From positions 24,571,323 to 24,635,322 of the forward strand of contig NC_089867.1 of NCBI RefSeq assembly GCF_036373705.1: 64,000 nucleotides of DNA, in the 5' to 3' direction. Each line of letters starts with the position of its first letter. Within the stretch, counting starts at the first letter, position 1. Below the pieces are notes generated by a model, which was not told where the DNA came from, did no database searches, and saw nothing but the letters and a program-made list of their open reading frames with translations. Shown piece by piece: positions 1,407-39,400 of this stretch. A program made the translations under genes and the position numbers. This DNA comes from Amia ocellicauda (taxonomy: Eukaryota > Chordata > Actinopteri > Amiiformes > Amiidae).

Positions 1407-1494
1407 TCAGCTTGAGCCGCAACCCGAGCCAGTTCCGCGGCGGCGACCCGTATCTGTGCAGAACCGAGTTCATGGTCCACTTGTTGGGCACCAT
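1407..1494 (-). CDS. Candidate first coding exon, possibly PLEKHG5 (weak)
   Basis: On the minus strand an ATG at 1494 opens a frame beginning MVPNKWTMNSVLHRY and ending GLRLKL, followed by a near-perfect donor (A|GTAAGT, intron starting at 1406). The stretch is GC-rich against AT-rich flanks, as expected of a 5' exon. In human, PLEKHG5 lies on the minus strand with its 5' end facing the NOL9 3' end, which matches this position. The final GLRLKL plus a split serine-type codon resembles the GLKLSKK stretch near the human PLEKHG5 N terminus. The resemblance is six residues only, and no second exon is in the window to confirm it. It could equally be a noncoding first exon or chance. Confidence 0.2.
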
Positions 1495-15412: not shown

Positions 15413-18400
15413 ATGGCGGCGCCGGAGGGCAGACACGCCCTGCTGCTGCTGTCGTCGCTCAACCAGCAGAGGGTGCAGGGCAGCTTCTGCGACGCCAGCC
15501 TGAGCGCGGAGGACGGGGGGGTGTTCCGGGCGCACCGCAGCGTGCTGGCCTGCTTCAGCCAGCTGTTCCGCGACTCCTACGCTGCCACCCCGTTCGTGGA
15601 CGTGCGCCTGCCCGAGGGCTGCCCCTCCGAGGGACTGGGCCTGCTGCTGGACTTCATCTACACGGGGGAGCTGAAGCTGAGCTCGGGGACACTGGACAAG
15701 GTGCGCAGTGCGGCCCTCAGCCTGTCCGTGCCCGACGCCCTCAGCCTCTGCCAGGAGTTTGGCCAGGGGGACCCGCCCGAAGCCCCCCTACAGGCAGAAC
15801 CCAGCGCAGCAGACAGTGAGTGCCAGGGATCCCCGCGGGGGGCCCCCGAGGGACAGGAATGCACCGGCGCAGCTCAGCCATCGGGGACGGCGAAACCCAA
15901 ACCCAGACAGTCGGCCAAGATGAAATCCAAAGCGGTCAATACCACACCAAGGCCGGTTGCCCCCTGCCCAGCCACAGATGCCACCACAACCACACGCTCG
16001 GGACGCAGAGTCAAGGGCCCCAGCCGCCTGCTCAGGGACAGCCCCCCGCCCACGTCTCCCCGGATCCCCCCACGCCGGGCCGAGCCAGCAGCTAAGGAAG
16101 AGGGAAAGGGGGCGTCTGTGGCAGCCGATGTGGAGAGCGCCGAGCCCCCCGCCGTGGGCACAGAGGTACCGGGCTTTTCATTTCCTAATGCGCGGTGCCA
16201 AAGGATTTTACTGGCATTAAATAGAAAAACAAGAACTGACCCTTGGGATGTCAGAGGCAGGGACGAGAGACTAACTGCATCCTGCGGCACATCTCATTCA
16301 ATTACAGAGAGCCGGAGGATGTGAAACTGCCGGTACAGGGTTTGATTTCCCCCACTTTTTTCCCCTTGCAGGACGGGAGGGGAGTGGAGGCCGGCCGCGA
16401 CGTGGACCACGAGGAAGAAGAGGCTGGGGAGGGCGAGGTGGGGCGCGAGGACACCGACGAAGACTACCTCCCCCCCACGCCTCCCGCCACCGCGGCCAAC
16501 CCCCGGAGCAGGTACAGGGGCCGGGCGCGGGGAGCCGTCAACAAGGAGAATGGGGAGAGGCCCCGGAGGGATGCCAGGAGGGGCTCCGTTCAGTGCCCGA
16601 CCTGCCACAAGACCTTCCTCAGCAAGTACTACCTCAAGGTGCACAACAGGTAGGCCCTGCCAGCTGTCATACTTTTATGATCAGGTCCATTTACCACACA
16701 CACACACACACAACCGCATCTTGAGTCAGCTGGCATTCTCTCCCTCTCTCTCTCTCTCTCTCTCCCTCAGACGCCACACTGGGGAGAAGCCGTTCGAGTG
16801 TGGCAAGTGTGGCAAGTGCTACTACAGGAAAGAGAACCTTCTGGAGCACGAAGCCAGGAACTGTATGAACCGAGCAGAAGTGGTGAGTCTTACCTGGACC
16901 GGACATACACAGCTGTGTCCCCGAGCCAGGTGTTCTCTCAGTGTGTTGAATGTGTGTGTGTGTGTGTGTGTGGCAGGTGTTCTCTCGGTGTGTGTTTGTT
17001 GGGGCAGGTGTTCTCAGTGTGTTAATGTGTGTGTGTCTGTGTGGCAGGTGTTCTCAGTGTGTTAATGTGTGTGTGTCTGTGTGGCAGGTGTTCTCTCGGT
17101 GTGTGTTTCTTGTGGCAGGTGTTCTCTGTGTTAATGTGTGTGTGTTTGTTGTGGCAGGTGTTCTCAGTGTGTTAATGTGTGTGTGTGTCTGTGTTGCAGG
17201 TGTTCTCAGTGTGTTAATGTGTGTGTGTCTGTGTGGCAGGTGTTCTCAGTGTGTTAATGTGTGTGTGTCTGTGTGGCAGGTGTTCTCAGTGTGTTAATGT
17301 GTGTGTGTGTCTGTGTGGCAGGTGTTCTCAGTGTGTTAATGTGTGTGTGTTTGTTGTGGCAGGTGTTCTCTGTGTTAATGTGTGTGTGTCTGTGTGGCAG
17401 GTGTTCTCTGTGTTAATGTGTGTGTGTTTCTTGTGGCAGGTGTTCTCAGTGTGTTAATGTGTGTGTGTCTGTGTGGCAGGTGTTCTCAGTGTGTTAATGT
17501 GTGTGTGTCTGTGTGGCAGGTGTTCTCAGTGTGTTAATGTGTGTGTGTCTGTGTGGCAGGTGTTCTCAGTGTGTTAATGTGTGTGTGTGTCTGTGTGGCA
17601 GGTGTTCTCAGTGTGTTAATGTGTGTGTGTTTGTTGTGGCAGGTGTTCTCTGTGTTAATGTGTGTGTGTCTGTGTGGCAGGTGTTCTCTGTGTTAATGTG
17701 TGTGTGTTTCTTGTGGCAGGTGTTCTCAGTGTGTTAATGTGTGTGTGTCTGTGTGGCAGGTGTTCTCAGTGTGTTAATGTGTGTGTGTCTGTGTGGCAGG
17801 TGTTCTCAGTGTGTTAATGTGTGTGTGTCTGTGTGGCAGGTGTTCTCAGTGTGTTAATGTGTGTGTGTGTCTGTGTGTGTGTGTGTCTGTGTGGCAGGTG
17901 TTCTCTCGGTGTGTGTCTGTGTGGCAGGTGTTCTCAGTGTGTTAATGTGTGTGTGTCTGTGTGGCAGGTGTTCTCTCGGTGTGTGTTTGTTGTGGCAGGT
18001 GTTCTCAGTGTGTTAATGTGTGTGTGTGTCTGTGTGGCAGGTGTTCTCAGTGTGTTAATGTGTGTGTGTCTGTGTGGCAGGTGTTCTCAGTGTGTTAATG
18101 TGTGTGTGTGTGTGTGGCAGGTGTTCTCTCGGTGTGTGTTTGTTGTGGCAGGTGTTCTCAGTGTGTTAAGGTGTGTGTGTTTCTTGTGGCAGGTGTTCTC
18201 AGTGTGTTCATGTGTGTGTTTGTTGTGGCAGGTGTTCTCTCTGTGTGTGTTTGTTGTGGCAGGTGTTCTCAGTGTGTTAATGTGTGTGTGTCTGTGTGGC
18301 AGGTGTTCTCAGTGTGTTCATGTGTGTGTTTGTTGTGGCAGGTGTTCTCAGTGTGTTAAGGTGTGTGTGTTTCTTGTGGCAGGTGTTCTCAGTGTGTTAA

Positions 18401-21400
18401 TGTGTGTGTGTGTCTGTGTGGCAGGTGTTCTCTGTGTTAATGTGTGTGTGTTTGTTGTGGCAGGTGTTCTCAGTGTGTTAATGTGTGTGTGTGTCTGTGT
18501 GGCAGGTGTTCTCAGTGTGTTAATGTGTGTGTGTTTGTTGTGGCAGGTGTTCTCAGTGTGTTAAGGTGTGTGTGTTTCTTGTGGCAGGTGTTCTCAGTGT
18601 GTTAATGTGTGTGTGTTTGTTGTGGCAGGTGTTCTCAGTGTGTTAAGGTGTGTGTGTTTCTTGTGGCAGGTGTTCTCACTGTGTTAATGTGTGTGTGTGT
18701 CTGTGTGGCAGGTGTTCTCTGTGTTAATGTGTGTGTGTTTGTTGTGGCAGGTGTTCTCAGTGTGTTAATGTGTGTGTGTTTGTTGTGGCAGGTGTTCTCA
18801 GTGTGTTAATGTGTGTGTGTCTGTGTGGCAGGTGTTCTCAGTGTGTTAATGTGTGTGTGTCTGTGTGGCAGGTGTTCTCAGTGTGTTAATGTGTGTGTGT
18901 CTGTGTGGCAGGTGTTCTCAGTGTGTTAATGTGTGTGTGTCTGTGTGGCAGGTGTTCTCTCGGTGTGTGTTTGTTGTGGCAGGTGTTCTCAGTGTGTTAA
19001 TGTGTGTGGGTTTTTGTGGCAGGTGTTCTCAGTGTGTTAATGTGTGTGTGTGTCTGTGTGGCAGGTGTTCTTTCAGTGTGTTAATGTGTGTGTGTCTGTG
19101 TGGCAGGTGTTCTCAGTGTGTTAATGTGTGTGTGTCTGTGTGGCAGGTGTTCTCAGTGTGTTCATGTGTGTGTTTGTTGTGGCAGGTGTTCTCTCTGTGT
19201 GTGTTTGTTGTGGCAGGTGTTCTCAGTGTGTTAAGGTGTGTGTGTCTGTGTGGCAGGTGTTCTCAGTGTGTTAAGGTGTGTGTGTCTGTGTGGCAGGTGT
19301 TCTCTGTGTTAATGTGTGTGTGTTTGTTGTGGCAGGTGTTCTCAGTGTGTTAATGTGTGTGTGTGTGTCTGTGTGGCAGGTGTTCTTTCAGTGTGTTAAT
19401 GTGTGTGTGTCTGTGTGGCAGGTGTTCTCAGTGTGTTAATGTGTGTGTGTCTGTGTGGCAGGTGTTCTCAGTGTGTTAATGTGTGTGTGTCTGTGTGGCA
19501 GGTGTTCTCAGTGTGTTAATGTGTGTGTGTCTGTGTGGCAGGTGTTCTCAGTGTGTTAATGTGTGTGTGTCTGTGTGGCAGGTGTTCTCAGTGTGTTAAG
19601 GTGTGTGTGTTTCTTGTGGCAGGTGTTCTCAGTGTGTTAAGGTGTGTGTGTTTCTTGTGGCAGGTGTTCTCAGTGTGTTAATGTGTGTGTGTCTGTGTGG
19701 CAGGTGTTCTCAGTGTGTTAATGTGTGTGTGTCTGTGTGGCAGGTGTTCTCAGTGTGTTAATGTGTGTGTGTCTGTGTGGCAGGTGTTCTCAGTGTGTTC
19801 ATGTGTGTGTTTGTTGTGGCAGGTGTTCTCAGTGTGTTAATGTGTGTGTGTTTGTTGTGGCAGGTGTTCTCAGTGTGTTAATGTGTGTGTGTTTGTTGTG
19901 GCAGGTGTTCTCAGTGTGTTAATGTGTGTGTGTGTCTGTGTGGCAGGTGTTCTCTGTGTTAATGTGTGTGTGTTTGTTGTGGCGGGTGTTCTCAGTGTGT
20001 TAAGGTGTGTGTGTTTCTTGTGGCAGGTGTTCTCAGTGTGTTAATGTGTGTGTCTGTGTGGCAGGTGTTCTCAGTGTGTTAAGGTGTGTGTGTGTCTGTG
20101 TGGCAGGTGTTCTCAGTGTGTTAATGTGTGTGTGTGTCTGTGTGGCAGGTGTTCTCAGTGTGTTAATGTGTGTGTGTTTCTTGTGGCAGGTGTTCTCAGT
20201 GTGTTAATGTGTGTGTGTGTCTGTGTGGCAGGTGTTCTCTGTGTTAATGTGTGTGTGTTTGTTGTGGCAGGTGTTCTCAGTGTGTTAATGTGTGTGTGTG
20301 TGTCTGTGTGGCAGGTGTTCTCAGTGTGTTAAGGTGTGTGTGTTTCTTGTGGCAGGTGTTCTCAGTGTGTTAATGTGTGTGTGTCTGTGTGGCAGGTGTT
20401 CTCAGTGTGTTAATGTGTGTGTGTTTGTTGTGGCAGGTGTTCTCAGTGTGTTAAGGTGTGTGTGTTTCTTGTGGCAGGTGTTCTCAGTGTGTTAATGTGT
20501 GTGTGTGTCTGTGTGGCAGGTGTTCTCTGTGTTAATGTGTGTGTGTTTGTTGTGGCAGGTGTTCTCAGTGTGTTAATGTGTGTGTGTGTCTGTGTGGCAG
20601 GTGTTCTTTCAGTGTGTTAATGTGTGTGTTTGTTGTGGCAGGTGTTCTCAGTGTGTTAATGTGTGTGTGTCTGTGTGGCAGGTGTTCTCAGTGTGTTAAT
20701 GTGTGTGTGTCTGTGTGGCAGGTGTTCTCAGTGTGTTAATGTGTGTGTGTGTCTGTGTGGCAGGTGTTCTCTGTGTTAATGTGTGTGTGTTTGTTGTGGC
20801 GGGTGTTCTCAGTGTGTTAAGGTGTGTGTGTTTCTTGTGGCAGGTGTTCTCAGTGTGTTAATGTGTGTGTGTTTGTTGTGGCAGGTGTTCTCAGTGTGTT
20901 AAGGTGTGTGTGTGTTTGTTGTGGCAGGTGTTCTCAGTGTGTTAATGTGTGTGTGTGTCTGTGTGGCAGGTGTTCTCTGTGTTAATGTGTGTGTGTTTGT
21001 TGTGGCAGGTGTTCTCAGTGTGTTAAGGTGTGTGTGTTTCTTGTGGCAGGTGTTCTCAGTGTGTTAATGTGTGTGTGTGTCTGTGTGGCAGGTGTTCTCT
21101 GTGTTAATGTGTGTGTGTTTGTTGTGGCAGGTGTTCTCAGTGTGTTAATGTGTGTGTGTGTGTCTGTGTGGCAGGTGTTCTTTCAGTGTGTTAATGTGTG
21201 TGTTTGTTGTGGCAGGTGTTCTCTCTGTGTGTGTTTGTTGTGGCAGGTGTTCTCTCTGTGTGTTTGTTGTGGCAGGTGTTCTCAGTGTGTTAAGGTGTGT
21301 GTGTCTGTGTGGCAGGTGTTCTCAGTGTGTTAAGGTGTGTGTGTCTGTGTGGCAGGTGTTCTCTGTGTTAATGTGTGTGTGTTTGTTGTGGCAGGTGTTC

Positions 21401-24400
21401 TCAGTGTGTTAAGGTGTGTGTGTTTCTTGTGGCAGGTGTTCTCAGTGTGTTAATGTGTGTGTGTGTCTGTGTGGCAGGTGTTCTCTGTGTTAATGTGTGT
21501 GTGTTTGTTGTGGCAGGTGTTCTCAGTGTGTTAATGTGTGTGTCTGTGTGGCAGGTGTTCTCAGTGTGTTAATGTGTGTGTGTTTGTTGTGGCAGGTGTT
21601 CTCAGTGTGTTAAGGTGTGTGTGTGTCTGTGTGGCAGGTGTTCTTTCAGTGTGTTAATGTGTGTGTGTCTGTGTGGCAGGTGTTCTCAGTGTGTTAATGT
21701 GTGTGTGTCTGTGTGGCAGGTGTTCTCAGTGTGTTAATGTGTGTGTGTCTGTGTGGCAGGTGTTCTCAGTGTGTTAATGTGTGTGTGTCTGTGTGGCAGG
21801 TGTTCTCAGTGTGTTAAGGTGTGTGTGTTTCTTGTGGCAGGTGTTCTCAGTGTGTTAAGGTGTGTGTGTGTTTCTTGTGGCAGGTGTTCTCAGTGTGTTA
21901 ATGTGTGTGTGTTTGTTGTGGCAGGTGTTCTCAGTGTGTTAAGGTGTGTGTGTTTCTTGTGGCAGGTGTTCTCAGTGTGTTAATGTGTGTGTGTGTCTGT
22001 GTGGCAGGTGTTCTCTGTGTTAATGTGTGTGTGTTTGTTGTGGCGGGTGTTCTCAGTGTGTTAAGGTGTGTGTGTTTCTTGTGGCAGGTGTTCTCAGTGT
22101 GTTAATGTGTGTGTGTCTGTGTGGCAGGTGTTCTCAGTGTGTTAATGTGTGTGTGTCTGTGTGGCAGGTGTTCTCAGTGTGTTCATGTGTGTGTTTGTTG
22201 TGGCAGGTGTTCTCTCTGTGTGTGTTTGTTGTGGCAGGTGTTCTCAGTGTGTTAATGTGTGTGTGTTTGTTGTGGCAGGTGTTCTCAGTGTGTTAATGTG
22301 TGTGTGTGTCTGTGTGGCAGGTGTTCTCTGTGTTAATGTGTGTGTGTTTGTTGTGGCAGGTGTTCTCAGTGTGTTAAGGTGTGTGTGTCTGTGTGGCAGG
22401 TGTTCTCTGTGTTAAGGTGTGTGTGTTTCTTGTGGCAGGTGTTCTCAGTGTGTTAATGTGTGTGTGTCTGTGTGGCAGGTGTTCTCTGTGTTAATGTGTG
22501 TGTGTTTGTTGTGGCAGGTGTTCTCAGTGTGTTAATGTGTGTGTGTCTGTGTGGCAGGTGTTCTCAGTGTGTTAATGTGTGTGTGTGTGTGTGGCAGGTG
22601 TTCTCAGTGTGTTAATGTGTGTGTGTCTGTGTGGCAGGTGTTCTCAGTGTGTTAATGTGTGTGTGTGTCTGTGTGGCAGGTGTTCTCAGTGTGTTAAGGT
22701 GTGTGTGTTTCTTGTGGCAGGTGTTCTCAGTGTGTTAATGTGTGTGTGTCTGTGTGGCAGGTGTTCTCAGTGTGTTAATGTGTGTGTGTGTGTGTGGCAG
22801 GTGTTCTCAGTGTGTTAATGTGTGTGTGTCTGTGTGGCAGGTGTTCTCAGTGTGTTAATGTGTGTGTGTCTGTGTGGCAGGTGTTCTCAGTGTGTTAATG
22901 TGTGTGTGTTTGTTGTGGCAGGTGTTCTCAGTGTGTTAAGGTGTGTGTGTTTCTTGTGGCAGGTGTTCTCAGTGTGTTAATGTGTGTGTGTGTCTGTGTG
23001 GCAGGTGTTCTCTGTGTTAATGTGTGTGTGTTTGTTGTGGCAGGTGTTCTCAGTGTGTTAATGTGTGTGTGTGTCTGTGTGGCAGGTGTTCTCAGTGTGT
23101 TCATGTGTGTGTCTGTGTGGCAGGTGTTCTCAGTGTGTTAAGGTGTGTGTGTGTCTGTGTGGCAGGTGTTCTCAGTGTGTTAATGTGTGTGTGTGTCTGT
23201 GTGGCAGGTGTTCTCAGTGTGTTAATGTGTGTGTGTTTGTTGTGGCAGGTGTTCTCAGTGTGTTAAGGTGTGTGTGTTTCTTGTGGCAGGTGTTCTCAGT
23301 GTGTTAATGTGTGTGTGTGTCTGTGTGGCAGGTGTTCTCTGTGTTAATGTGTGTGTGTTTGTTGTGGCAGGTGTTCTCAGTGTGTTAATGTGTGTGTGTG
23401 TCTGTGTGGCAGGTGTTCTCAGTGTGTTAAGGTGTGTGTGTTTCTTGTGGCAGGTGTTCTCAGTGTGTTAATGTGTGTGTGTCTGTGTGGCAGGTGTTCT
23501 CAGTGTGTTAAGGTGTGTGTGTGTCTGTGTGGCAGGTGTTCTCAGTGTGTTCATGTGTGTGTCTGTGTGGCAGGTGTTCTCAGTGTGTTAAGGTGTGTGT
23601 GTGTCTGTGTGGCAGGTGTTCTCAGTGTGTTAATGTGTGTGTGTGTCTGTGTGGCAGGTGTTCTCAGTGTGTTAATGTGTGTGTGTCTGTGTGGCAGGTG
23701 TTCTCAGTGTGTTAAGGTGTGTGTGTTTCTTGTGGCAGGTGTTCTCAGTGTGTTAATGTGTGTGTGTGTGTGTGGCAGGTGTTCTCAGTGTGTTAAGGTG
23801 TGTGTGTTTCTTGTGGCAGGTGTTCTCAGTGTGTTAATGTGTGTGTGTGTCTGTGTGGCAGGTGTTCTCTGTGTTAATGTGTGTGTGTTTGTTGTGGCAG
23901 GTGTTCTCAGTGTGTTAATGTGTGTGTGTGTCTGTGTGGCAGGTGTTCTCAGTGTGTTAAGGTGTGTGTGTTTCTTGTGGCAGGTGTTCTCAGTGTGTTA
24001 ATGTGTGTGTGTTTGTTGTGGCAGGTGTTCTCAGTGTGTTAAGGTGTGTGTGTTTCTTGTGGCAGGTGTTCTCAGTGTGTTAATGTGTGTGTGTGTGGCA
24101 GGTGTTCTCTGTGTTAATGTGTGTGTGTTTGTTGTGGCAGGTGTTCTCAGTGTGTTAATGTGTGTGTCTGTGTGGCAGGTGTTCTCAGTGTGTTAATGTG
24201 TGTGTGTTTGTTGTGGCAGGTGTTCTCAGTGTGTTAAGGTGTGTGTGTTTCTTGTGGCAGGTGTTCTCAGTGTGTTAATGTGTGTGTGTCTGTGTGGCAG
24301 GTGTTCTCTGTGTTAATGTGTGTGTGTTTGTTGTGGCAGGTGTTCTCAGTGTGTTAATGTGTGTGTGTGTCTGTGTGGCAGGTGTTCTTTCAGTGTGTTA

Positions 24401-27400
24401 ATGTGTGTGTGTCTGTGTGGCAGGTGTTCTCAGTGTGTTAATGTGTGTGTGTCTGTGTGGCAGGTGTTCTCAGTGTGTTAATGTGTGTGTGTCTGTGTGG
24501 CAGGTGTTCTCAGTGTGTTCATGTGTGTGTTTGTTGTGGCAGGTGTTCTCTCTGTGTGTGTTTGTTGTGGCAGGTGTTCTCAGTGTGTTAAGGTGTGTGT
24601 GTCTGTGTGGCAGGTGTTCTCAGTGTGTTAAGGTGTGTGTGTCTGTGTGGCAGGTGTTCTCTGTGTTAATGTGTGTGTGTTTGTTGTGGCAGGTGTTCTC
24701 AGTGTGTTAAGGTGTGTGTGTTTCTTGTGGCAGGTGTTCTCAGTGTGTTAATGTGTGTGTGTCTGTGTGGCAGGTGTTCTCTGTGTTAATGTGTGTGTGT
24801 TTGTTGTGGCAGGTGTTCTCAGTGTGTTAATGTGTGTGTGTGTCTGTGTGGCAGGTGTTCTTTCAGTGTGTTAATGTGTGTGTGTTTGTGTGGCAGGTGT
24901 TCTCAGTGTGTTAATGTGTGTGTGTCTGTGTGGCAGGTGTTCTCAGTGTGTTAATGTGTGTGTGTCTGTGTGGCAGGTGTTCTCAGTGTGTTAATGTGTG
25001 TGTGTCTGTGTGGCAGGTGTTCTCAGTGTGTTAAGGTGTGTGTGTTTCTTGTGGCAGGTGTTCTCAGTGTGTTAAGGTGTGTGTGTGTTTCTTGTGGCAG
25101 GTGTTCTCTGTGTTAATGTGTGTGTGTTTGTTGTGGCAGGTGTTCTCAGTGTGTTAAGGTGTGTGTGTTTCTTGTGGCAGGTGTTCTCAGTGTGTTAATG
25201 TGTGTGTGTCTGTGTGGCAGGTGTTCTCTCGGTGTGTGTTTCTTGTGGCAGGTGTTCTCAGTGTGTTAATGTGTGTGTGTCTGTGTGGCAGGTGTTCTCA
25301 GTGTGTTTGTTGTGGCAGGTGTTCTCTCTGTGTGTGTTTGTTGTGGCAGGTGTTCTCAGTGTGTTAATGTGTGTGTGTTTGTTGTGGCAGGTGTTCTCAG
25401 TGTGTTAATGTGTGTGTGTGTGTCTGTGTGGCAGGTGTTCTCTGTGTTAATGTGTGTGTGTTTGTTGTGGCGGGTGTTCTCAGTGTGTTAAGGTGTGTGT
25501 GTCTGTGTGGCAGGTGTTCTCTGTGTTAAGGTGTGTGTGTTTCTTGTGGCAGGTGTTCTCAGTGTGTTAATGTGTGTGTGTCTGTGTGGCAGGTGTTCTC
25601 TGTGTTAATGTGTGTGTGTTTGTTGTGGCAGGTGTTCTCAGTGTGTTAATGTGTGTGTGTGTCTGTGTGGCAGGTGTTCTCAGTGTGTTAAGGTGTGTGT
25701 GTTTATTGTGGCAGGTGTTCTCAGTGTGTTAATGTGTGTGTGTCTGTGTGGCAGGTGTTCTCAGTGTGTTAATGTGTGTGTGTGTGTGTGGCAGGTGTTC
25801 TCAGTGTGTTAATGTGTGTGTGTCTGTGTGGCAGGTGTTCTCAGTGTGTTAATGTGTGTGTGTCTGTGTGGCAGGTGTTCTCAGTGTGTTAATGTGTGTG
25901 TGTTTGTTGTGGCAGGTGTTCTCAGTGTGTTAAGGTGTGTGTGTTTCTTGTGGCAGGTGTTCTCAGTGTGTTAATGTGTGTGTGTGTCTGTGTGGCAGGT
26001 GTTCTCTGTGTTAATGTGTGTGTGTTTGTTGTGGCAGGTGTTCTCAGTGTGTTAATGTGTGTGTGTGTCTGTGTGGCAGGTGTTCTCAGTGTGTTCATGT
26101 GTGTGTCTGTGTGGCAGGTGTTCTCAGTGTGTTAAGGTGTGTGTGTGTCTGTGTGGCAGGTGTTCTCAGTGTGTTAATGTGTGTGTGTGTCTGTGTGGCA
26201 GGTGTTCTCAGTGTGTTAATGTGTGTGTGTTTGTTGTGGCAGGTGTTCTCAGTGTGTTAAGGTGTGTGTGTTTCTTGTGGCAGGTGTTCTCAGTGTGTTA
26301 ATGTGTGTGTGTGTCTGTGTGGCAGGTGTTCTCTGTGTTAATGTGTGTGTGTTTGTTGTGGCAGGTGTTCTCAGTGTGTTAATGTGTGTGTGTGTCTGTG
26401 TGGCAGGTGTTCTCAGTGTGTTAAGGTGTGTGTGTTTCTTGTGGCAGGTGTTCTCAGTGTGTTAATGTGTGTGTGTCTGTGTGGCAGGTGTTCTCAGTGT
26501 GTTAAGGTGTGTGTGTGTCTGTGTGGCAGGTGTTCTCAGTGTGTTCATGTGTGTGTCTGTGTGGCAGGTGTTCTCAGTGTGTTAAGGTGTGTGTGTGTCT
26601 GTGTGGCAGGTGTTCTCAGTGTGTTAATGTGTGTGTGTGTCTGTGTGGCAGGTGTTCTCAGTGTGTTAATGTGTGTGTGTCTGTGTGGCAGGTGTTCTCA
26701 GTGTGTTAAGGTGTGTGTGTTTCTTGTGGCAGGTGTTCTCAGTGTGTTAATGTGTGTGTGTGTGTGTGGCAGGTGTTCTCAGTGTGTTAAGGTGTGTGTG
26801 TTTCTTGTGGCAGGTGTTCTCAGTGTGTTAATGTGTGTGTGTGTCTGTGTGGCAGGTGTTCTCTGTGTTAATGTGTGTGTGTTTGTTGTGGCAGGTGTTC
26901 TCAGTGTGTTAATGTGTGTGTGTGTCTGTGTGGCAGGTGTTCTCAGTGTGTTAAGGTGTGTGTGTTTCTTGTGGCAGGTGTTCTCAGTGTGTTAATGTGT
27001 GTGTGTTTGTTGTGGCAGGTGTTCTCAGTGTGTTAAGGTGTGTGTGTTTCTTGTGGCAGGTGTTCTCAGTGTGTTAATGTGTGTGTGTGTCTGTGTGGCA
27101 GGTGTTCTCTGTGTTAATGTGTGTGTGTTTGTTGTGGCAGGTGTTCTCAGTGTGTTAATGTGTGTGTCTGTGTGGCAGGTGTTCTCAGTGTGTTAATGTG
27201 TGTGTGTTTGTTGTGGCAGGTGTTCTCAGTGTGTTAAGGTGTGTGTGTTTCTTGTGGCAGGTGTTCTCAGTGTGTTAATGTGTGTGTGTCTGTGTGGCAG
27301 GTGTTCTCTGTGTTAATGTGTGTGTGTTTGTTGTGGCAGGTGTTCTCAGTGTGTTAATGTGTGTGTGTGTCTGTGTGGCAGGTGTTCTTTCAGTGTGTTA

Positions 27401-30400
27401 ATGTGTGTGTGTCTGTGTGGCAGGTGTTCTCAGTGTGTTAATGTGTGTGTGTCTGTGTGGCAGGTGTTCTCAGTGTGTTAATGTGTGTGTGTCTGTGTGG
27501 CAGGTGTTCTCAGTGTGTTCATGTGTGTGTTTGTTGTGGCAGGTGTTCTCTCTGTGTGTGTTTGTTGTGGCAGGTGTTCTCAGTGTGTTAAGGTGTGTGT
27601 GTCTGTGTGGCAGGTGTTCTCAGTGTGTTAAGGTGTGTGTGTCTGTGTGGCAGGTGTTCTCTGTGTTAATGTGTGTGTGTTTGTTGTGGCAGGTGTTCTC
27701 AGTGTGTTAAGGTGTGTGTGTTTCTTGTGGCAGGTGTTCTCAGTGTGTTAATGTGTGTGTGTCTGTGTGGCAGGTGTTCTCTGTGTTAATGTGTGTGTGT
27801 TTGTTGTGGCAGGTGTTCTCAGTGTGTTAATGTGTGTGTGTGTCTGTGTGGCAGGTGTTCTTTCAGTGTGTTAATGTGTGTGTGTTTGTGTGGCAGGTGT
27901 TCTCAGTGTGTTAATGTGTGTGTGTCTGTGTGGCAGGTGTTCTCAGTGTGTTAATGTGTGTGTGTCTGTGTGGCAGGTGTTCTCTGTGTTAATGTGTGTG
28001 TGTTTGTTGTGGCGGGTGTTCTCAGTGTGTTAAGGTGTGTGTGTCTGTGTGGCAGGTGTTCTCTGTGTTAAGGTGTGTGTGTTTCTTGTGGCAGGTGTTC
28101 TCAGTGTGTTAATGTGTGTGTGTCTGTGTGGCAGGTGTTCTCTGTGTTAATGTGTGTGTGTTTGTTGTGGCAGGTGTTCTCAGTGTGTTAATGTGTGTGT
28201 GTGTCTGTGTGGCAGGTGTTCTCAGTGTGTTAAGGTGTGTGTGTTTCTTGTGGCAGGTGTTCTCAGTGTGTTAATGTGTGTGTGTCTGTGTGGCAGGTGT
28301 TCTCAGTGTGTTAATGTGTGTGTGTGTGTGTGGCAGGTGTTCTCAGTGTGTTAATGTGTGTGTGTCTGTGTGGCAGGTGTTCTCAGTGTGTTAATGTGTG
28401 TGTGTCTGTGTGGCAGGTGTTCTCAGTGTGTTAATGTGTGTGTGTTTGTTGTGGCAGGTGTTCTCAGTGTGTTAAGGTGTGTGTGTTTCTTGTGGCAGGT
28501 GTTCTCAGTGTGTTAATGTGTGTGTGTGTCTGTGTGGCAGGTGTTCTCTGTGTTAATGTGTGTGTGTTTGTTGTGGCAGGTGTTCTCAGTGTGTTAATGT
28601 GTGTGTGTGTCTGTGTGGCAGGTGTTCTCAGTGTGTTCATGTGTGTGTCTGTGTGGCAGGTGTTCTCAGTGTGTTAAGGTGTGTGTGTGTCTGTGTGGCA
28701 GGTGTTCTCAGTGTGTTAATGTGTGTGTGTGTCTGTGTGGCAGGTGTTCTCAGTGTGTTAATGTGTGTGTGTTTGTTGTGGCAGGTGTTCTCAGTGTGTT
28801 AAGGTGTGTGTGTTTCTTGTGGCAGGTGTTCTCAGTGTGTTAATGTGTGTGTGTGTCTGTGTGGCAGGTGTTCTCTGTGTTAATGTGTGTGTGTTTGTTG
28901 TGGCAGGTGTTCTCAGTGTGTTAATGTGTGTGTGTGTCTGTGTGGCAGGTGTTCTCAGTGTGTTAAGGTGTGTGTGTTTCTTGTGGCAGGTGTTCTCAGT
29001 GTGTTAATGTGTGTGTGTCTGTGTGGCAGGTGTTCTCAGTGTGTTAAGGTGTGTGTGTGTCTGTGTGGCAGGTGTTCTCAGTGTGTTCATGTGTGTGTCT
29101 GTGTGGCAGGTGTTCTCAGTGTGTTAAGGTGTGTGTGTGTCTGTGTGGCAGGTGTTCTCAGTGTGTTAATGTGTGTGTGTGTCTGTGTGGCAGGTGTTCT
29201 CAGTGTGTTAATGTGTGTGTGTCTGTGTGGCAGGTGTTCTCAGTGTGTTAAGGTGTGTGTGTTTCTTGTGGCAGGTGTTCTCAGTGTGTTAATGTGTGTG
29301 TGTGTGTGTGGCAGGTGTTCTCAGTGTGTTAAGGTGTGTGTGTTTCTTGTGGCAGGTGTTCTCAGTGTGTTAATGTGTGTGTGTGTCTGTGTGGCAGGTG
29401 TTCTCTGTGTTAATGTGTGTGTGTTTGTTGTGGCAGGTGTTCTCAGTGTGTTAATGTGTGTGTGTGTCTGTGTGGCAGGTGTTCTCAGTGTGTTAAGGTG
29501 TGTGTGTTTCTTGTGGCAGGTGTTCTCAGTGTGTTAATGTGTGTGTGTTTGTTGTGGCAGGTGTTCTCAGTGTGTTAAGGTGTGTGTGTTTCTTGTGGCA
29601 GGTGTTCTCAGTGTGTTAATGTGTGTGTGTGTCTGTGTGGCAGGTGTTCTCTGTGTTAATGTGTGTGTGTTTGTTGTGGCAGGTGTTCTCAGTGTGTTAA
29701 TGTGTGTGTCTGTGTGGCAGGTGTTCTCAGTGTGTTAATGTGTGTGTGTTTGTTGTGGCAGGTGTTCTCAGTGTGTTAAGGTGTGTGTGTTTCTTGTGGC
29801 AGGTGTTCTCAGTGTGTTAATGTGTGTGTGTCTGTGTGGCAGGTGTTCTCTGTGTTAATGTGTGTGTGTTTGTTGTGGCAGGTGTTCTCAGTGTGTTAAT
29901 GTGTGTGTGTGTCTGTGTGGCAGGTGTTCTTTCAGTGTGTTAATGTGTGTGTGTCTGTGTGGCAGGTGTTCTCAGTGTGTTAATGTGTGTGTGTCTGTGT
30001 GGCAGGTGTTCTCAGTGTGTTAATGTGTGTGTGTCTGTGTGGCAGGTGTTCTCAGTGTGTTCATGTGTGTGTTTGTTGTGGCAGGTGTTCTCTCTGTGTG
30101 TGTTTGTTGTGGCAGGTGTTCTCAGTGTGTTAAGGTGTGTGTGTCTGTGTGGCAGGTGTTCTCAGTGTGTTAAGGTGTGTGTGTCTGTGTGGCAGGTGTT
30201 CTCTGTGTTAATGTGTGTGTGTTTGTTGTGGCAGGTGTTCTCAGTGTGTTAAGGTGTGTGTGTTTCTTGTGGCAGGTGTTCTCAGTGTGTTAATGTGTGT
30301 GTGTCTGTGTGGCAGGTGTTCTCTGTGTTAATGTGTGTGTGTTTGTTGTGGCAGGTGTTCTCAGTGTGTTAATGTGTGTGTGTGTCTGTGTGGCAGGTGT

Positions 30401-33400
30401 TCTTTCAGTGTGTTAATGTGTGTGTGTTTGTGTGGCAGGTGTTCTCAGTGTGTTAATGTGTGTGTGTCTGTGTGGCAGGTGTTCTCAGTGTGTTAATGTG
30501 TGTGTGTCTGTGTGGCAGGTGTTCTCAGTGTGTTAATGTGTGTGTGTCTGTGTGGCAGGTGTTCTCAGTGTGTTAAGGTGTGTGTGTTTCTTGTGGCAGG
30601 TGTTCTCAGTGTGTTAAGGTGTGTGTGTGTTTCTTGTGGCAGGTGTTCTCTGTGTTAATGTGTGTGTGTTTGTTGTGGCAGGTGTTCTCAGTGTGTTAAG
30701 GTGTGTGTGTTTCTTGTGGCAGGTGTTCTCAGTGTGTTAATGTGTGTGTGTCTGTGTGGCAGGTGTTCTCTCGGTGTGTGTTTCTTGTGGCAGGTGTTCT
30801 CAGTGTGTTAATGTGTGTGTGTCTGTGTGGCAGGTGTTCTCAGTGTGTTTGTTGTGGCAGGTGTTCTCTCTGTGTGTGTTTGTTGTGGCAGGTGTTCTCA
30901 GTGTGTTAATGTGTGTGTGTTTGTTGTGGCAGGTGTTCTCAGTGTGTTAATGTGTGTGTGTGTGTCTGTGTGGCAGGTGTTCTCTGTGTTAATGTGTGTG
31001 TGTTTGTTGTGGCGGGTGTTCTCAGTGTGTTAAGGTGTGTGTGTTTCTTGTGGCAGGTGTTCTCAGTGTGTTAATGTGTGTGTGTCTGTGTGGCAGGTGT
31101 TCTCAGTGTGTTAATGTGTGTGTCTGTGTGGCAGGTGTTCTCAGTGTGTTAAGGTGTGTGTGTGTCTGTGTGGCAGGTGTTCTCAGTGTGTTAATGTGTG
31201 TGTGTTTGTTGTGGCAGGTGTTCTCAGTGTGTTAATGTGTGTGTGTCTGTGTGGCAGGTGTTCTCAGTGTGTTAATGTGTGTGTGTGTCTGTGTGGCAGG
31301 TGTTCTCAGTGTGTTAATGTGTGTGTGTTTGTTGTGGCAGGTGTTCTCAGTGTGTTAAGGTGTGTGTGTTTCTTGTAGCAGGTGTTCTCAGTGTGTTAAT
31401 GTGTGTGTGTGTCTGTGTGGCAGGTGTTCTCTGTGTTAATGTGTGTGTGTTTGTTGTGGCAGGTGTTCTCAGTGTGTTCATGTGTGTGTCTGTGTGGCAG
31501 GTGTTCTCAGTGTGTTAAGGTGTGTGTGTGTCTGTGTGGCAGGTGTTCTCAGTGTGTTAATGTGTGTGTGTGTCTGTGTGGCAGGTGTTCTCAGTGTGTT
31601 AATGTGTGTGTGTTTGTTGTGGCAGGTGTTCTCAGTGTGTTAAGGTGTGTGTGTTTCTTGTGGCAGGTGTTCTCAGTGTGTTAATGTGTGTGTGTGTCTG
31701 TGTGGCAGGTGTTCTCTGTGTTAATGTGTGTGTGTTTGTTGTGGCAGGTGTTCTCAGTGTGTTAATGTGTGTGTCTGTGTGGCAGGTGTTCTCAGTGTGT
31801 TAATGTGTGTGTGTTTGTTGTGGCAGGTGTTCTCAGTGTGTTAATGTGTGTGTGTCTGTGTGGCAGGTGTTCTCAGTGTGTTAATGTGTGTGTGTGTCTG
31901 TGTGGCAGGTGTTCTCAGTGTGTTAATGTGTGTGTGTTTGTTGTGGCAGGTGTTCTCAGTGTGTTAAGGTGTGTGTGTTTCTTGTAGCAGGTGTTCTCAG
32001 TGTGTTAATGTGTGTGTGTGTCTGTGTGGCAGGTGTTCTCTGTGTTAATGTGTGTGTGTTTGTTGTGGCAGGTGTTCTCAGTGTGTTCATGTGTGTGTCT
32101 GTGTGGCAGGTGTTCTCAGTGTGTTAAGGTGTGTGTGTGTCTGTGTGGCAGGTGTTCTCAGTGTGTTAATGTGTGTGTGTGTCTGTGTGGCAGGTGTTCT
32201 CAGTGTGTTAATGTGTGTGTGTTTGTTGTGGCAGGTGTTCTCAGTGTGTTAAGGTGTGTGTGTTTGTTGTGGCAGGTGTTCTCAGTGTGTTAATGTGTGT
32301 GTCTGTGTGGCAGGTGTTCTCAGTGTGTTAATGTGTGTGTGTTTGTTGTGGCAGGTGTTCTCAGTGTGTTAAGGTGTGTGTGTGTCTGTGTGGCAGGTGT
32401 TCTCAGTGTGTTAAGGTGTGTGTGTTTCTTGTGGCAGGTGTTCTCAGTGTGTTAAGGTGTGTGTGTGTTTGTTGTGGCAGGTGTTCTCAGTGTGTTAATG
32501 TGTGTGTGTGTCTGTGTGGCAGGTGTTCTCTGTGTTAATGTGTGTGTGTTTGTTGTTACGGGTGTTCTCAGTGTGTTAAGGTGTGTGTGTTTCTTGTGGC
32601 AGGTGTTCTCAGTGTGTTAATGTGTGTGTGTCTGTGTGGCAGGTGTTCTCAGTGTGTTAATGTGTGTGTGTGTCTGTGTGGCAGGTGTTCTCAGTGTGTT
32701 AATGTGTGTGTGTGTGTGTGGCAGGTGTTCTCAGTGTGTTAATGTGTGTGTGTTTGTTGTGGCAGGTGTTCTCAGTGTGTTAAGGTGTGTGTGTTTCTTG
32801 TGGCAGGTGTTCTCAGTGTGTTAATGTGTGTGTGTGTCTGTGTGGCAGGTGTTCTCTGTGTTAATGTGTGTGTGTTTGTTGTGGCAGGTGTTCTCAGTGT
32901 GTTAATGTGTGTGTGTGTCTGTGTGGCAGGTGTTCTTTCAGTGTGTTAATGTGTGTGTGTCTGTGTGGCAGGTGTTCTCAGTGTGTTAAGGTGTGTGTGT
33001 CTGTGTGGCAGGTGTTCTCTGTGTTAATGTGTGTGTGTTTGTTGTGGCAGGTGTTCTCAGTGTCTTAAGGTGTGTGTGTTTCTTGTGGCAGGTGTTCTCA
33101 GTGTGTTAATGTGTGTGTCTGTGTGGCAGGTGTTCTCAGTGTGTTAATGTGTGTGTGTTTGTTGTGGCAGGTGTTCTCAGTGTGTTAAGGTGTGTGTGTT
33201 TCTTGTGGCAGGTGTTCTCAGTGTGTTAATGTGTGTGTGTCTGTGTGGCAGGTGTTCTCAGTGTGTTAATGTGTGTGTGTCTGTGTGGCAGGTGTTCTCA
33301 GTGTGTTAATGTGTGTGTGTCTGTGTGGCAGGTGTTCTCAGTGTGTTAAGGTGTGTGTGTTTCTTGTGGCAGGTGTTCTCAGTGTGTTAAGGTGTGTGTG

Positions 33401-36400
33401 TTTCTTGTGGCAGGTGTTCTCAGTGTGTTAATGTGTGTGTGTCTGTGTGGCAGGTGTTCTCAGTGTGTTAAGGTGTGTGTGTTTCTTGTGGCAGGTGTTC
33501 TCAGTGTGTTAATGTGTGTGTGTGTCTGTGTGGCAGGTGTTCTCTGTGTTAATGTGTGTGTGTTTGTTGTGGCAGGTGTTCTCAGTGTGTTAATGTGTGT
33601 GTCTGTGTGGCAGGTGTTCTCAGTGTGTTAATGTGTGTGTGTTTGTTGTGGCAGGTGTTCTCAGTGTGTTAAGGTGTGTGTGTTTCTTGTGGCAGGTGTT
33701 CTCTGTGTTAATGTGTGTGTGTCTGTGTGGCAGGTGTTCTTTCAGTGTGTTAATGTGTGTGTGTCTGTGTGGCAGGTGTTCTCAGTGTGTTAATGTGTGT
33801 GTGTCTGTGTGGCAGGTGTTCTCAGTGTGTTAATGTGTGTGTGTCTGTGTGGCAGGTGTTCTCAGTGTGTTAATGTGTGTGTGTCTGTGTGGCAGGTGTT
33901 CTCAGTGTGTTAATGTGTGTGTGTTTGTTGTGGCAGGTGTTCTCAGTGTGTTAAGGTGTGTGTGTTTCTTGTGGCAGGTGTTCTCAGTGTGTTAATGTGT
34001 GTGTGTGTCTGTGTGGCAGGTGTTCTCTGTGTTAATGTGTGTGTGTTTGTTGTGGCGGGTGTTCTCAGTGTGTTAAGGTGTGTGTGTTTCTTGTGGCAGG
34101 TGTTCTCAGTGTGTTAATGTGTGTGTGTCTGTGTGGCAGGTGTTCTCAGTGTGTTAATGTGTGTGTGTCTGTGTGGCAGGTGTTCTCAGTGTGTTAAGGT
34201 GTGTGTGTTTCTTGTGGCAGGTGTTCTCAGTGTGTTAATGTGTGTGTGTGTGTCTGTGTGGCAGGTGTTCTCTGTGTTAATGTGTGTGTGTTTGTTGTGG
34301 CAGGTGTTCTCAGTGTGTTAATGTGTGTGTGTGTCTGTGTGGCAGGTGTTCTCAGTGTGTTAATGTGTGTGTGTGTCTGTGTGGCAGGTGTTCTCTGTGT
34401 TAATGTGTGTGTGTTTGTTGTGGCAGGTGTTCTCAGTGTGTTAATGTGTGTGTCTGTGTGGCAGGTGTTCTCAGTGTGTTAATGTGTGTGTGTTTGTTGT
34501 GGCAGGTGTTCTCAGTGTGTTAAGGTGTGTGTGTTTCTTGTGGCAGGTGTTCTCAGTGTGTTAATGTGTGTGTGTCTGTGTGGCAGGTGTTCTCTGTGTT
34601 AATGTGTGTGTGTTTGTTGTGGCAGGTGTTCTCAGTGTGTTAATGTGTGTGTGTGTCTGTGTGGCAGGTGTTCTTTCAGTGTGTTAATGTGTGTGTTTGT
34701 TGTGGCAGGTGTTCTCTCTGTGTGTTTGTTGTGGCAGGTGTTCTCAGTGTGTTAATGTGTGTGTGTGTCTGTGTGGCAGGTGTTCTCTGTGTTAATGTGT
34801 GTGTGTTTGTTGTGGCGGGTGTTCTCAGTGTGTTAAGGTGTGTGTGTCTGTGTGGCAGGTGTTCTCAGTGTGTTAATGTGTGTGTGTGTCTGTGTGGCAG
34901 GTGTTCTCAGTGTGTTAATGTGTGTGTGTCTGTGTGGCAGGTGTTCTCAGTGTGTTAATGTGTGTGTGTGTCTGTGTGGCAGGTGTTCTCAGTGTGTTAA
35001 TGTGTGTGTGTTTGTTGTGGCAGGTGTTCTCAGTGTGTTAAGGTGTGTGTGTTTCTTGTGGCAGGTGTTCTCAGTGTGTTAATGTGTGTGTTTGTTGTGG
35101 CAGGTGTTCTCTCTCTGTGTGTTTGTTGTGGCAGGTGTTCTCAGTGTGTTAATGTGTGTGTGTTTGTTGTGGCAGGTGTTCTCAGTGTGTTAAGGTGTGT
35201 GTGTCTGTGTGGCAGGTGTTCTCTGTGTTAATGTGTGTGTGTTTGTTGTGGCGGGTGTTCTCAGTGTGTTAAGGTGTGTGTGTTTCTTGTGGCAGGTGTT
35301 CTCAGTGTGTTAATGTGTGTGTGTCTGTGTGGCAGGTGTTCTCAGTGTGTTAATGTGTGTGTGTTTGTTGTGGCAGGTGTTCTCAGTGTGTTAAGGTGTG
35401 TGTGTGTCTGTGTGGCAGGTGTTCTCAGTGTGTTAATGTGTGTGTCTGTGTGGCAGGTGTTCTCAGTGTGTTAATGTGTGTGTGTGTCTGTGTGGCAGGT
35501 GTTCTCAGTGTGTTAATGTGTGTGTGTTTGTTGTGGCAGGTGTTCTCAGTGTGTTAAGGTGTGTGTGTTTCTTGTGGCAGGTGTTCTCAGTGTGTTAATG
35601 TGTGTGTGTGTCTGTGTGGCAGGTGTTCTCTGTGTTAATGTGTGTGTGTTTGTTGTGGCAGGTGTTCTCAGTGTGTTAATGTGTGTGTGTGTGTCTGTGT
35701 GGCAGGTGTTCTTTCAGTGTGTTAATGTGTGTGTGTCTGTGTGGCAGGTGTTCTCTCTGTGTGTGTTTGTTGTGGCAGGTGTTCTCTCTGTGTGTTTGTT
35801 GTGGCAGGTGTTCTCTCTGTGTGTTTGTTGTGGCAGGTGTTCTCTCTGTGTTTGTTGTGGCAGGTGTTCTCAGTGTGTTAATGTGTGTGTGTTTGTTGTG
35901 GCAGGTGTTCTCAGTGTGTTAAGGTGTGTGTGTCTGTGTGGCAGGTGTTCTCAGTGTGTTAATGTGTGTGTGTTTGTTGTGGCAGGTGTTCTCAGTGTGT
36001 TAAGGTGTGTGTGTGTCTGTGTGGCAGGTGTTCTCAGTGTGTTAATGTGTGTGTCTGTGTGGCAGGTGTTCTCAGTGTGTTAATGTGTGTGTGTGTCTGT
36101 GTGGCAGGTGTTCTCAGTGTGTTAATGTGTGTGTGTTTGTTGTGGCAGGTGTTCTCAGTGTGTTAAGGTGTGTGTGTTTCTTGTGGCAGGTGTTCTCAGT
36201 GTGTTAATGTGTGTGTGTGTCTGTGTGGCAGGTGTTCTCTGTGTTAATGTGTGTGTGTTTGTTGTGGCAGGTGTTCTCAGTGTGTTAATGTGTGTGTGTG
36301 TGTCTGTGTGGCAGGTGTTCTCTCTGTGTGTGTTTGTTGTGGCAGGTGTTCTCTCTGTGTGTTTGTTGTGGCAGGTGTTCTCAGTGTGTTAATGTGTGTG

Positions 36401-39400
36401 TGTCTGTGTGGCAGGTGTTCTCTGTGTTAATGTGTGTGTGTTTGTTGTGGCAGGTGTTCTCAGTGTGTTAATGTGTGTGTCTGTGTGGCAGGTGTTCTCA
36501 GTGTGTTAATGTGTGTGTGTTTGTTGTGGCAGGTGTTCTCTGTGTTAATGTGTGTGTCTGTGTGGCAGGTGTTCTCAGTGTGTTAAGGTGTGTGTGTTTC
36601 TTGTGGCAGGTGTTCTCAGTGTGTTAATGTGTGTGTATGTGTCTGTGTGGCAGGTGTTCTTTCAGTGTGTTAATGTGTGTGTTTGTTGTGGCAGGTGTTC
36701 TCTCTGTGTGTGTTTGTTGTGGCAGGTGTTCTCTCTGTGTGTTTGTTGTGGCAGGTGTTCTCTCTGTGTGTTTGTTGTGGCAGGTGTTCTCAGTGTGTTA
36801 ATGTGTGTGTGTTTGTTGTGGCAGGTGTTCTCAGTGTGTTAATGTGTGTGTGTCTGTGTGGCAGGTGTTCTCTGTGTTAATGTGTGTGTGTTTGTTGTGG
36901 CAGGTGTTCTCAGTGTGTTAAGGTGTGTGTGTTTCTTGTGGCAGGTGTTCTCAGTGTGTTAATGTGTGTGTGTGTCTGTGTGGCAGATGTTCTCAGTGTG
37001 TTCATGTGTGTGTTTGTTGTGGCAGGTGTTCTCTCTGTGTGTGTTTGTTGTGGCAGGTGTTCTCAGTGTGTTAAGGTGTGTGTGTCTGTGTGGCAGGTGT
37101 TCTCAGTGTGTTAAGGTGTGTGTGTCTGTGTGGCAGGTGTTCTCTGTGTTAATGTGTGTGTGTTTGTTGTGGCAGGTGTTCTCAGTGTGTTAAGGTGTGT
37201 GTGTTTCTTGTGGCAGGTGTTCTCAGTGTGTTAATGTGTGTGTGTGTCTGTGTGGCAGGTGTTCTCTGTGTTAATGTGTGTGTGTTTGTTGTGGCAGGTG
37301 TTCTCAGTGTGTTAATGTGTGTGTGTCTGTGTGGCAGGTGTTCTCAGTGTGTTAATGTGTGTGTCTGTGTGGCAGGTGTTCTCAGTGTGTTAATGTGTGT
37401 GTGTCTGTGTGGCAGGTGTTCTCAGTGTGTTAATGTGTGTGTGTTTGTTGTGGCAGGTGTTCTCAGTGTGTTAATGTGTGTGTGTCTGTGTGGCAGGTGT
37501 TCTCAGTGTGTTAATGTGTGTGTGTCTGTGTGGCAGGTGTTCTCAGTGTGTTAATGTGTGTGTGTCTGTGTGGCAGGTGTTCTCAGTGTGTTCATGTGTG
37601 TGTTTGTTGTGGCAGGTGTTCTCTCTGTGTGTGTTTGTTGTGGCAGGTGTTCTCAGTGTGTTAAGGTGTGTGTGTGTCTGTGTGGCAGGTGTTCTCAGTG
37701 TGTTAAGGTGTGTGTGTTTCTTGTGGCAGGTGTTCTCAGTGTGTTAATGTGTGTGTGTTTGTTGTGGCAGGTGTTCTCAGTGTGTTAATGTGTGTGTGTT
37801 TGTTGTGGCAGGTGTTCTCAGTGTGTTAATGTGTGTGTTTCTTGTGGCAGGTGTTCTCGTGCTCTCAGTGCACATTGACTTTCCGCCGGCGGTTGGAGCT
37901 GCGTCTGCACATGGTCAGCCACACCGGAGAAATGCCCAACAAGGTACCGGCCAGTTCCTAATATTCATATTATTGTTATTTGACCGATGTAGTGTGTACC
38001 CCCGTGCCTGACGCCTCTGTGTGTCCTTCTGTCTGTGTACCAGTGCACCTCGTGTCCAGAGCAGTTCATGCAGAAGAAGGACTTGAAGAGCCACCTAATC
38101 AAGGTTCACGGCGCGCCCAAACCCCACGCGGTGAGCGCACAACACCCTACTCCCTGCTGTTGTCGGGATGTGTGTTCTGGGGAAATGGTTAATGTTGATT
38201 GTGCGTTGTGTGTGTGTGTCGTGCTCAGTGCTCGCTGTGTCCCAAGTGCTTCCTGTCCCGCACCGAGCTGCGACTGCACGAGGCCTCCAAGCACCGTGGG
38301 GAGAAGCTGTTCGTGTGCGAGGAGTGCGGACACCGCGCCTCCAGCCGCAACGGCCTGCAGATGCACATCAAGGCCATCCACCGGTGAGCAGGGGCAGCTG
38401 GGGTGGATAGGGGGAGAGGGGCAGGATGTGTTGTCAATGTGGGGGAATCCATAGACTGGTCTTTTGTTACCCTATAAAAAAAATATTGAGCAGTATTGTG
38501 AGTGACTTCCTCTCTAAGTGCTGTGCATCAACCTATTGCATGCTGGGAGAATAGGAGGGTATGTTTTGGCATAGGAGGGCAATTGTGCCGGCCTTGTGCC
38601 CAGGGTGGTCTGGGGTGGTTTAGTGTGTGAAGCAGCAGGAACCCCGCACTGATGACTCTGCTGGGGGCTGTTTGTGTGTTTGTGCGGCAGCAACGAGAGG
38701 CCCTTTGTGTGTGAGTTCTGCAGCCACGCCTTCACGCAGAAGGCCAACCTGAACATGCACCTGCGCACACACACCGGCGAGAAGCCCTTCCAGTGCCACC
38801 TGTGCGGCAAGACCTTCCGCACACAGGGTAACCCCTCTGCTACTGACACACACACACACTCACACACACCTGAATCTGAGTCTCACACCTGAACTACAGC
38901 GATACGGGCAATGGGAAAGCCTGGGGTTCAGGGACTTGTGCTTGTCCTTCCTCCTGATTGTGTGTGTGTTACAGCCAGCCTCGACAAGCACCACCGCACA
39001 CACACGGGCGAGCGGCCGTTCCGCTGTGAATTCTGCGAGCAGCGCTTCACGGAGAAGGGGCCTCTGCTGAGACACGTGGCCAGCAAGCACCAGGAGGGCC
39101 GGCCGCACTACTGCCACATCTGCAGCAAGACCTTCAAAGGTAACCACCGCACTGAAACACACACACAGCGGTCATGTGACTGACGATCGTCCGACCGGTC
39201 ATCTTTACCTGCCCTGTCCCCTTGTTTCTGCCCCCCAGCCATCGAGCAGCTGCGGGTCCATGTGCGCCGACACAAGGGGATGAGGAAGTTTGAGTGCTCC
39301 GAGTGCGGCTACAAGTTCACCAGACAGGTACGGTGAATCTGTGAGGATGTTTTTATTATACCCTTTGAACGAACTTCTGATTTAAAATGGGGGTTCGATT

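Follow-up and report, generated by a model that had tools for sequence, protein, structure and literature searches.

The ZBTB48 gene and its third intron

The 64,000-nucleotide stretch of Amia ocellicauda contig NC_089867.1 analysed here (assembly GCF_036373705.1, positions 24,571,323 to 24,635,322; hereafter the window, numbered from its first letter) carries on its forward strand a gene that is taken as ZBTB48, also named TZAP or HKR3. The third intron of this gene is occupied, from position 16,928 to the start of exon 4, by a tandem array whose units repeat the 3′ end of the intron together with the first letters of the exon that follows. The gene is intact as judged from its reading frame: joining position 16,882 to position 37,851 yields a single open frame of 748 amino acids in 10 exons, and all introns are of the GT-AG type. 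The name ZBTB48 is assigned because the protein matches PDB entries for HKR3 (2dlq, E 9.6e-63), the telomere zinc finger-associated protein (5yj3, E 7.5e-61) and the BTB part of ZBTB48 (3b84, E 6.6e-23). The first two of these stood second and third in the list, the top row by E-value was a chain of the many-fingered ZNF568, and many other zinc-finger chains also matched. The parts of the gene that matter here are as follows (a slash marks a splice junction throughout).

15413..40172, forward strand: ZBTB48 coding region; 10 exons, 748 amino acids, BTB domain and C2H2 fingers
16883..37850, forward strand: intron 3 of ZBTB48; 20,968 nt
16883..16888, forward strand: authentic exon 3 donor, GTG/GTGAGT
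37851..37943, forward strand: exon 4; length 93 nt, starting and ending in phase 0; by visual reading it covers one C2H2 finger

The remaining eight coding introns measure 206, 121, 100, 98, 307, 147, 99 and 467 nt (range 98–467). From the coordinates, intron 3 stripped of all but one unit would measure roughly 85–130 nt, like several of its neighbours. The acceptors of introns 5, 6 and 7 are also TG-rich (window positions 38131–38974; for example, TTTGTGTGTTTGTGCGGCAG), which suggests that a TG tract is an ordinary part of an acceptor in ZBTB48.

Composition, origin and growth of the array

A preliminary description of this DNA had placed about 500 tandem copies of the intron's own 3′ splice site at 16930..37850. 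The coordinates prove correct and the estimate close: the program TRF reported a single array at 16,988–37,858 (period 40, 519.7 copies, 87% matches), and a count anchored on the splice junction GGCAGGTGTTCT, with up to two mismatches allowed, returned 524 units. Adding one unit with a degraded junction gives a total of 525, the first with its junction at 16,930 and the last, the true site, at 37,851.

16928..37850, forward strand: boundary minisatellite; 525 units, mostly 38–44 nt
16928..16976, forward strand: first unit, a divergent singleton; its junction lies at 16,930 and the next 47 nt further on
32556..32569, forward strand: degraded junction TTACGG/GTGTTCTC, at 32,562; missed by the first anchor search
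22630..31044, forward strand: duplicated internal blocks, letter-exact and 893 to 2,279 nt long; offsets 2,542, 2,994, 3,000, 5,536 and 5,542

A typical unit begins with the exon part GTGTTCTC, continues with AGTGTGTTAATGTGTGTG and runs through a GT- or T-rich tract that closes with TGTGGCAG; the commonest form, GTGTTCTCAGTGTGTTAATGTGTGTGTGTCTGTGTGGCAG, accounts for 100 of 523 units. As the preliminary description had it, each unit thus joins the intron's 3′ splice site to the start of the exon, the exonic contribution being up to 8 nt, and the array lies between in-frame ZBTB48 exons. The first eight letters of exon 4 are complete in 507 of 524 decoy units (that is, units other than the true junction), 16 hold the first seven, and one begins with A. 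The junction reads CAG/GTGTTC at 514 of 525 sites, the true one included. It had also been said that only a small minority of units lose the AG, and 515 of 525 do keep it; the ten losses comprise nine copies of an identical GCGG unit and the TTACGG unit, hence two unit types. For 370 of 524 units a branch-point-like yUnAy element, mostly TTAAT, is present 15–44 nt upstream of the junction; the other 154 have none in that interval. With this element, the tract and the AG present, most units are complete candidate acceptors with the first exon bases attached. Splicing at the AG of the first unit would remove an intron of just 47 nt.

Stretches of alternating GT, each 6 nt or longer and 1,207 in number, account for 9,882 of the 20,968 nt of intron 3. 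Strand asymmetry is pronounced within the array, with a GC skew of about +0.6 and an AT skew of about −0.65 in each 2-kb step of window positions 18001–36000. With its non-template strand so rich in GT, the array might be prone to R-loops or Z-DNA.

The letters repeated at each junction derive from the exon. Of the 496 occurrences of the junction 16-mer TGTGGCAGGTGTTCTC in the 988-Mb assembly, 493 lie inside the window, and the same pattern read backwards has 0 occurrences; on these counts, a chance match between array and junction is regarded as excluded. The start of exon 4 itself occurs once in the assembly. At the corresponding position, the structure 2dlq reads NRSEQVFTCSVC against NRAEVVFSCSQC in the Amia gene, the Val-Phe pair being shared with HKR3, a mammalian protein. 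Because Val-Phe is kept in HKR3, the GTGTTC that encodes it at the start of exon 4 is old coding sequence, and the letters passed from the exon into the array.

The converse proposal, that a generic GT-rich satellite landed in the intron and matched the exon by accident, is hardly credible. The genome does contain other GT-rich minisatellites (39 matches at 72–82% identity, from a similarity search that is no census and did not list the array itself), CAGTGTTAATGTGTGTG being an example of their motifs. However, the junction 16-mer is nearly private to intron 3, 507 of 524 decoys share all eight exon letters exactly at the splice point, and Val-Phe is conserved coding sequence. Arrays of the same unit were not found at other loci: the 988-Mb assembly holds three copies of the 16-mer outside the window, and the two that were inspected were both single. 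Ten other GT-rich stretches, chosen for similarity, were not built on the ZBTB48 junction. Long GT/AC-rich minisatellites with units of 11–54 bp, reaching up to ~6 kb within the fetched stretches, were seen at 1–3627 in stretch L010, 3202–7479 in L014 and 20–5987 in L017. As a background sample, five 10-kb stretches contained 1.5% tandem repeat and no array longer than 500 bp, too few stretches to judge the rarity of 21-kb arrays.

Within the array, 523 units fall into 47 distinct strings. Singletons stand at both edges, as the first two units and as the final one, with 17 more inside, and the exact internal block duplications are recent. Together, unit diversity, block copies and edge singletons are what slippage and unequal exchange commonly produce when the edges take no part. 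The block copies bear on a further explanation, in which the real array is much shorter and has been swollen by exact 1–2 kb duplications made by the assembler. This is quite improbable. The blocks are exact to the letter over 893–2,279 nt, and the array may outrun many long reads; yet most of it is not block-copied, since recurring k-mers amount to 24% at 800 nt, 7% at 1,600 nt and none at 2,400 nt. The window contains no N letters, and hundreds of units would, by estimate, remain if the copied blocks were removed. As some block copying could be assembly error, 525 is an estimate, with the exact copy number taken from one assembly.

The true acceptor among its decoys

Two sites define the comparison between the authentic 3′ splice site and the repeated ones.

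37826..37850, forward strand: true acceptor; TTAAT ~22 nt before the junction, then TTTCTTGTGGCAG up to the junction; the unit is a singleton
37730..37737, forward strand: nearest decoy with a 23-nt window equal to the true one; exonic part GTGTTCTC, 121 nt upstream of exon 4

Across a 20+3 nt window, 83 of 514 AG decoys are letter-identical to the true acceptor, and the 514 show 18 different windows in total. If the gene is spliced normally, models of the local site cannot separate those 83 from the true one, and something beyond the site must decide. The unit before exon 4 has a shorter GT tract, and no decoy matches the true site beyond position −21. The preliminary description had held that the true site is distinct only by the exon beyond it; over the 20+3 nt window this stands for the 83 and fails for the others. 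Within 300 nt upstream of exon 4 there are seven AG decoys, one of which (37,730) has the identical window. In pyrimidine fraction (positions −20 to −5), 501 of 514 decoys equal or exceed the acceptor of intron 5 and 95 equal or exceed the true site. As nearly all reach the intron 5 value, the decoys are not poor by the gene's own acceptor standard.

If a decoy were used and the transcript read on without further splicing, an in-frame stop would be met before the end of exon 4 in all 514 cases. The stop falls within six codons for 375 decoys; in each of these a TAA is supplied by the branch-point-like TTAA of the following acceptor, with T as the next letter in 268 and G in 107. This bears out the earlier prediction that decoy use would add stop-containing or cysteine-rich sequence, although the added residues would be rich in both Cys and Val. 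Skipping of exon 4, by comparison, keeps the frame and yields 717 amino acids with no internal stop and one zinc finger fewer. A 39-base pattern for a processed ZBTB48 copy showing the join of exons 3 and 4, with up to three mismatches allowed, found no match in the assembly, and a control pattern of 36 bases from the start of exon 4 matched once, at the gene itself. A protein search for such a copy listed other zinc-finger genes, with long matches at 37–44% identity; it is a weak test, as scoring covered 150 of 1,144 candidates and the matches listed did not include the exons of ZBTB48 itself.

In another reading the array is a length-dependent regulator like the repeat of human ABCA7: by weakening recognition of exon 4, its length would determine how much full ZBTB48 is made relative to the in-frame isoform lacking one finger, or would reduce output through nonsense decay. 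Exon 4 measures 93 nt with phase 0 at both ends, so that its removal leaves the 717-residue frame open, and longer ABCA7 alleles are accompanied by more in-frame skipping of exon 19 and by lower expression (PMC5954066). Nevertheless, in-frame skipping is perhaps a coincidence, and an effect alone would not imply that it was selected. Regulation by array length is considered unlikely here.

Each junction also carries donor-like letters. CAG/GTGTTC matches the donor consensus at six of nine positions, and the nine authentic donors match at five to seven. At positions +4 to +6 the decoy junction (TTC) matches at none of three; the authentic donors of introns 1 and 4 are no better there. Acceptor and donor dinucleotides likewise meet, as CAG/GT, in the ratchet points of Drosophila, where acceptor and donor are juxtaposed (PMC8605326). 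By analogy, the array might act as a recursive-splicing ladder in which each CAG/GTG is a zero-length exon, the intron is removed stepwise and a wrong first choice is mended by re-splicing from the regenerated donor. The 514 junctions reading CAG/GTGTTC, with both functions at one point, are what such a ladder would use; unlike ratchet points, they have a weak donor half and exist in hundreds of copies. Moreover, TTC departs from the donor consensus at all three of its positions, the donor rebuilt after splicing to a decoy would be GTG/GTGTTC (four of nine positions), and the dual site may only reflect the fact that exon 4 starts with GTG (Val). A recursive ladder is judged very unlikely.

Related repeats, proposed splicing and flanking genes

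Repeated splice sites have several precedents. The units of a herpesvirus repeat hold splice sites, and in human IFI6 (G1P3) a 1995 paper reportedly described a donor minisatellite that offers a single transcript numerous splice sites of the same kind; that array is said to be short and, in contrast to ZBTB48, consists of donor sites. The closest relatives in form are the 'mirages' of amphioxus, tandem copies of intron-exon boundaries (PMC3902484). Mirage loci include Adh3, TnC and the globins BflGb6 and BflGb9, with similar repeats in PGBD5 (PMC3087553, PMC3902484). In BflGb6 the unit comprises the 3′ end of the intron and the 5′ part of exon 2, present in six and three copies in two haplotypes, and reverse transcription–polymerase chain reaction (RT-PCR) suggests normal splicing (PMC3087553). 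The mirages of Adh and TnC are said not to yield aberrant mRNAs (PMC3902484).

Mirages and the ZBTB48 array share minisatellite-like tandem copies across an intron-exon boundary, many units with AG/GT, and edge units that escape homogenisation. They differ in scale: ZBTB48 has 525 units against the six and three of BflGb6 (~90 to 175 times as many), a unit of ~40 nt against 150–160 (10–72 in Adh3), 8 nt of exon per unit and 21 kb in total, and it is a vertebrate gene, given its assignment to ZBTB48. Because the array consists of intron-plus-exon units that keep AG/GT, is continuous with the authentic boundary (its last unit leads into exon 4), is local to that boundary and is homogenised inside with singletons at the edges, it is placed with this known kind. 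By these features it is an extreme case, mirage-like on the acceptor side.

A second comparison is offered by the variable number tandem repeat (VNTR) in intron 18 of human ABCA7, whose 25-bp unit starts with the exon 18 donor and which ranges from 298 bp (~12 copies) to 10,678 bp (~427 copies) (PMC5954066). Both arrays have a short unit that holds the real splice site of the adjoining exon, hundreds of copies, and a next downstream exon that can be skipped in frame. However, the ABCA7 unit repeats a donor and is C-rich, whereas the GT-rich ZBTB48 unit repeats an acceptor, mostly with a branch-point-like element. The ZBTB48 units thus copy the 3′ splice site and do not repeat the donor of exon 3, which reads GTG/GTGAGT at 16,883. 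The ABCA7 repeat is polymorphic, and its effects on splicing have been measured.

The preliminary description knew of no described gene with a satellite of splice acceptors this large. Taken to mean that nothing comparable is on record, this needs correction in view of the mirages (PMC3902484) and the ABCA7 VNTR (PMC5954066). An acceptor array on the ZBTB48 scale was not found among the open-licence papers listed by searches on repeated splice sites or boundary duplication, and ZBTB48 is named in none of the ten papers listed by a separate search. If the gene is spliced normally, the array would carry boundary minisatellites, represented by the amphioxus globin with three to six copies and by the donor repeat of ABCA7, over to acceptors and to more than 500 copies.

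It is proposed, with a probability of about 0.62, that the array is a mirage-type boundary minisatellite that is tolerated by a gene kept functional through exon definition and repressors. The 3′ end of an originally short intron (an estimated 85–130 nt) and the first 8 nt of exon 4 were tandemly duplicated, and slippage and unequal exchange would then have carried the array to ~525 units. The spliceosome would mostly recognise exon 4 jointly with the donor that follows it, at 37,944. Exon definition has a limit of ~300 nt, and a distance of this size upstream of exon 4 would leave few candidates, as only the true acceptor and seven decoys of the 515 AG acceptors lie within it. The remaining decoys would probably be coated by repressors that bind UG tracts, such as TDP-43 and CELF proteins. 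In favour of this are the GT runs of the intron and a precedent: TDP-43, known to have a UG-rich RNA motif, represses a cryptic exon of Nfasc that has a UG-rich tract beside it (PMC7946431). Leaked decoy transcripts would be cleared as nonsense mRNA, an in-frame stop lying downstream of each AG decoy, and where no acceptor was chosen exon 4 would be skipped in frame to give the 717-residue protein minus one zinc finger. On this proposal, the array is probably neutral, being tolerated rather than selected.

Several considerations weigh against a tolerated boundary minisatellite of this kind. Its splicing steps are all predictions from sequence. Splice sites are often taken in the order in which they appear, and early decoys would then have the advantage. 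By the score of a rough position table (not MaxEntScan, and given less weight than letter identity), 421 of 514 AG decoys score lower than the true site, 92 equal to it and one higher; as the true site outscores so many, local site strength may outweigh exon definition. Many decoys may be weak by themselves, because 154 of 524 units lack yUnAy at 15–44 nt. Decoy exons or recursive steps are possible, since the decoy junctions match the donor consensus at six of nine positions, as several authentic donors do. The parallel with Nfasc is loose, as the UG tract there lies downstream of the cryptic exon (PMC7946431), whereas UG tracts flank the ZBTB48 junctions on both sides and could silence the true acceptor as well. 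Finally, the long ABCA7 donor array accompanies lower expression and more skipping (PMC5954066).

A broader claim would be that a working vertebrate gene holds several hundred similar complete acceptors one after another, of which 83 equal the true one letter for letter over the usual scoring window, and still splices to the last, so that the choice falls mainly to exon definition acting from the far side of the site, and in addition that array length tunes the in-frame skipping of one zinc finger of a telomere-associated protein. As a whole this claim is unlikely. If ZBTB48 is spliced normally, the locus is a natural experiment in 3′ splice-site choice, and it would show how many decoy acceptors can build up before a gene suffers. 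If splicing is not normal, the array represents a length-dependent splicing defect or switch in the gene for a telomere-associated protein.

Adjoining ZBTB48, an open frame on the reverse strand (window 47175–48284) matches the Pfam families BTB, BACK and Kelch; from the human neighbourhood ZBTB48-KLHL21-PHF13, it is taken to be probably KLHL21. A Tc1-like transposase frame lies on the forward strand at window 63244–64000 (HTH_Tnp_Tc3_2, E 6.9e-17) and runs past the end of the window.

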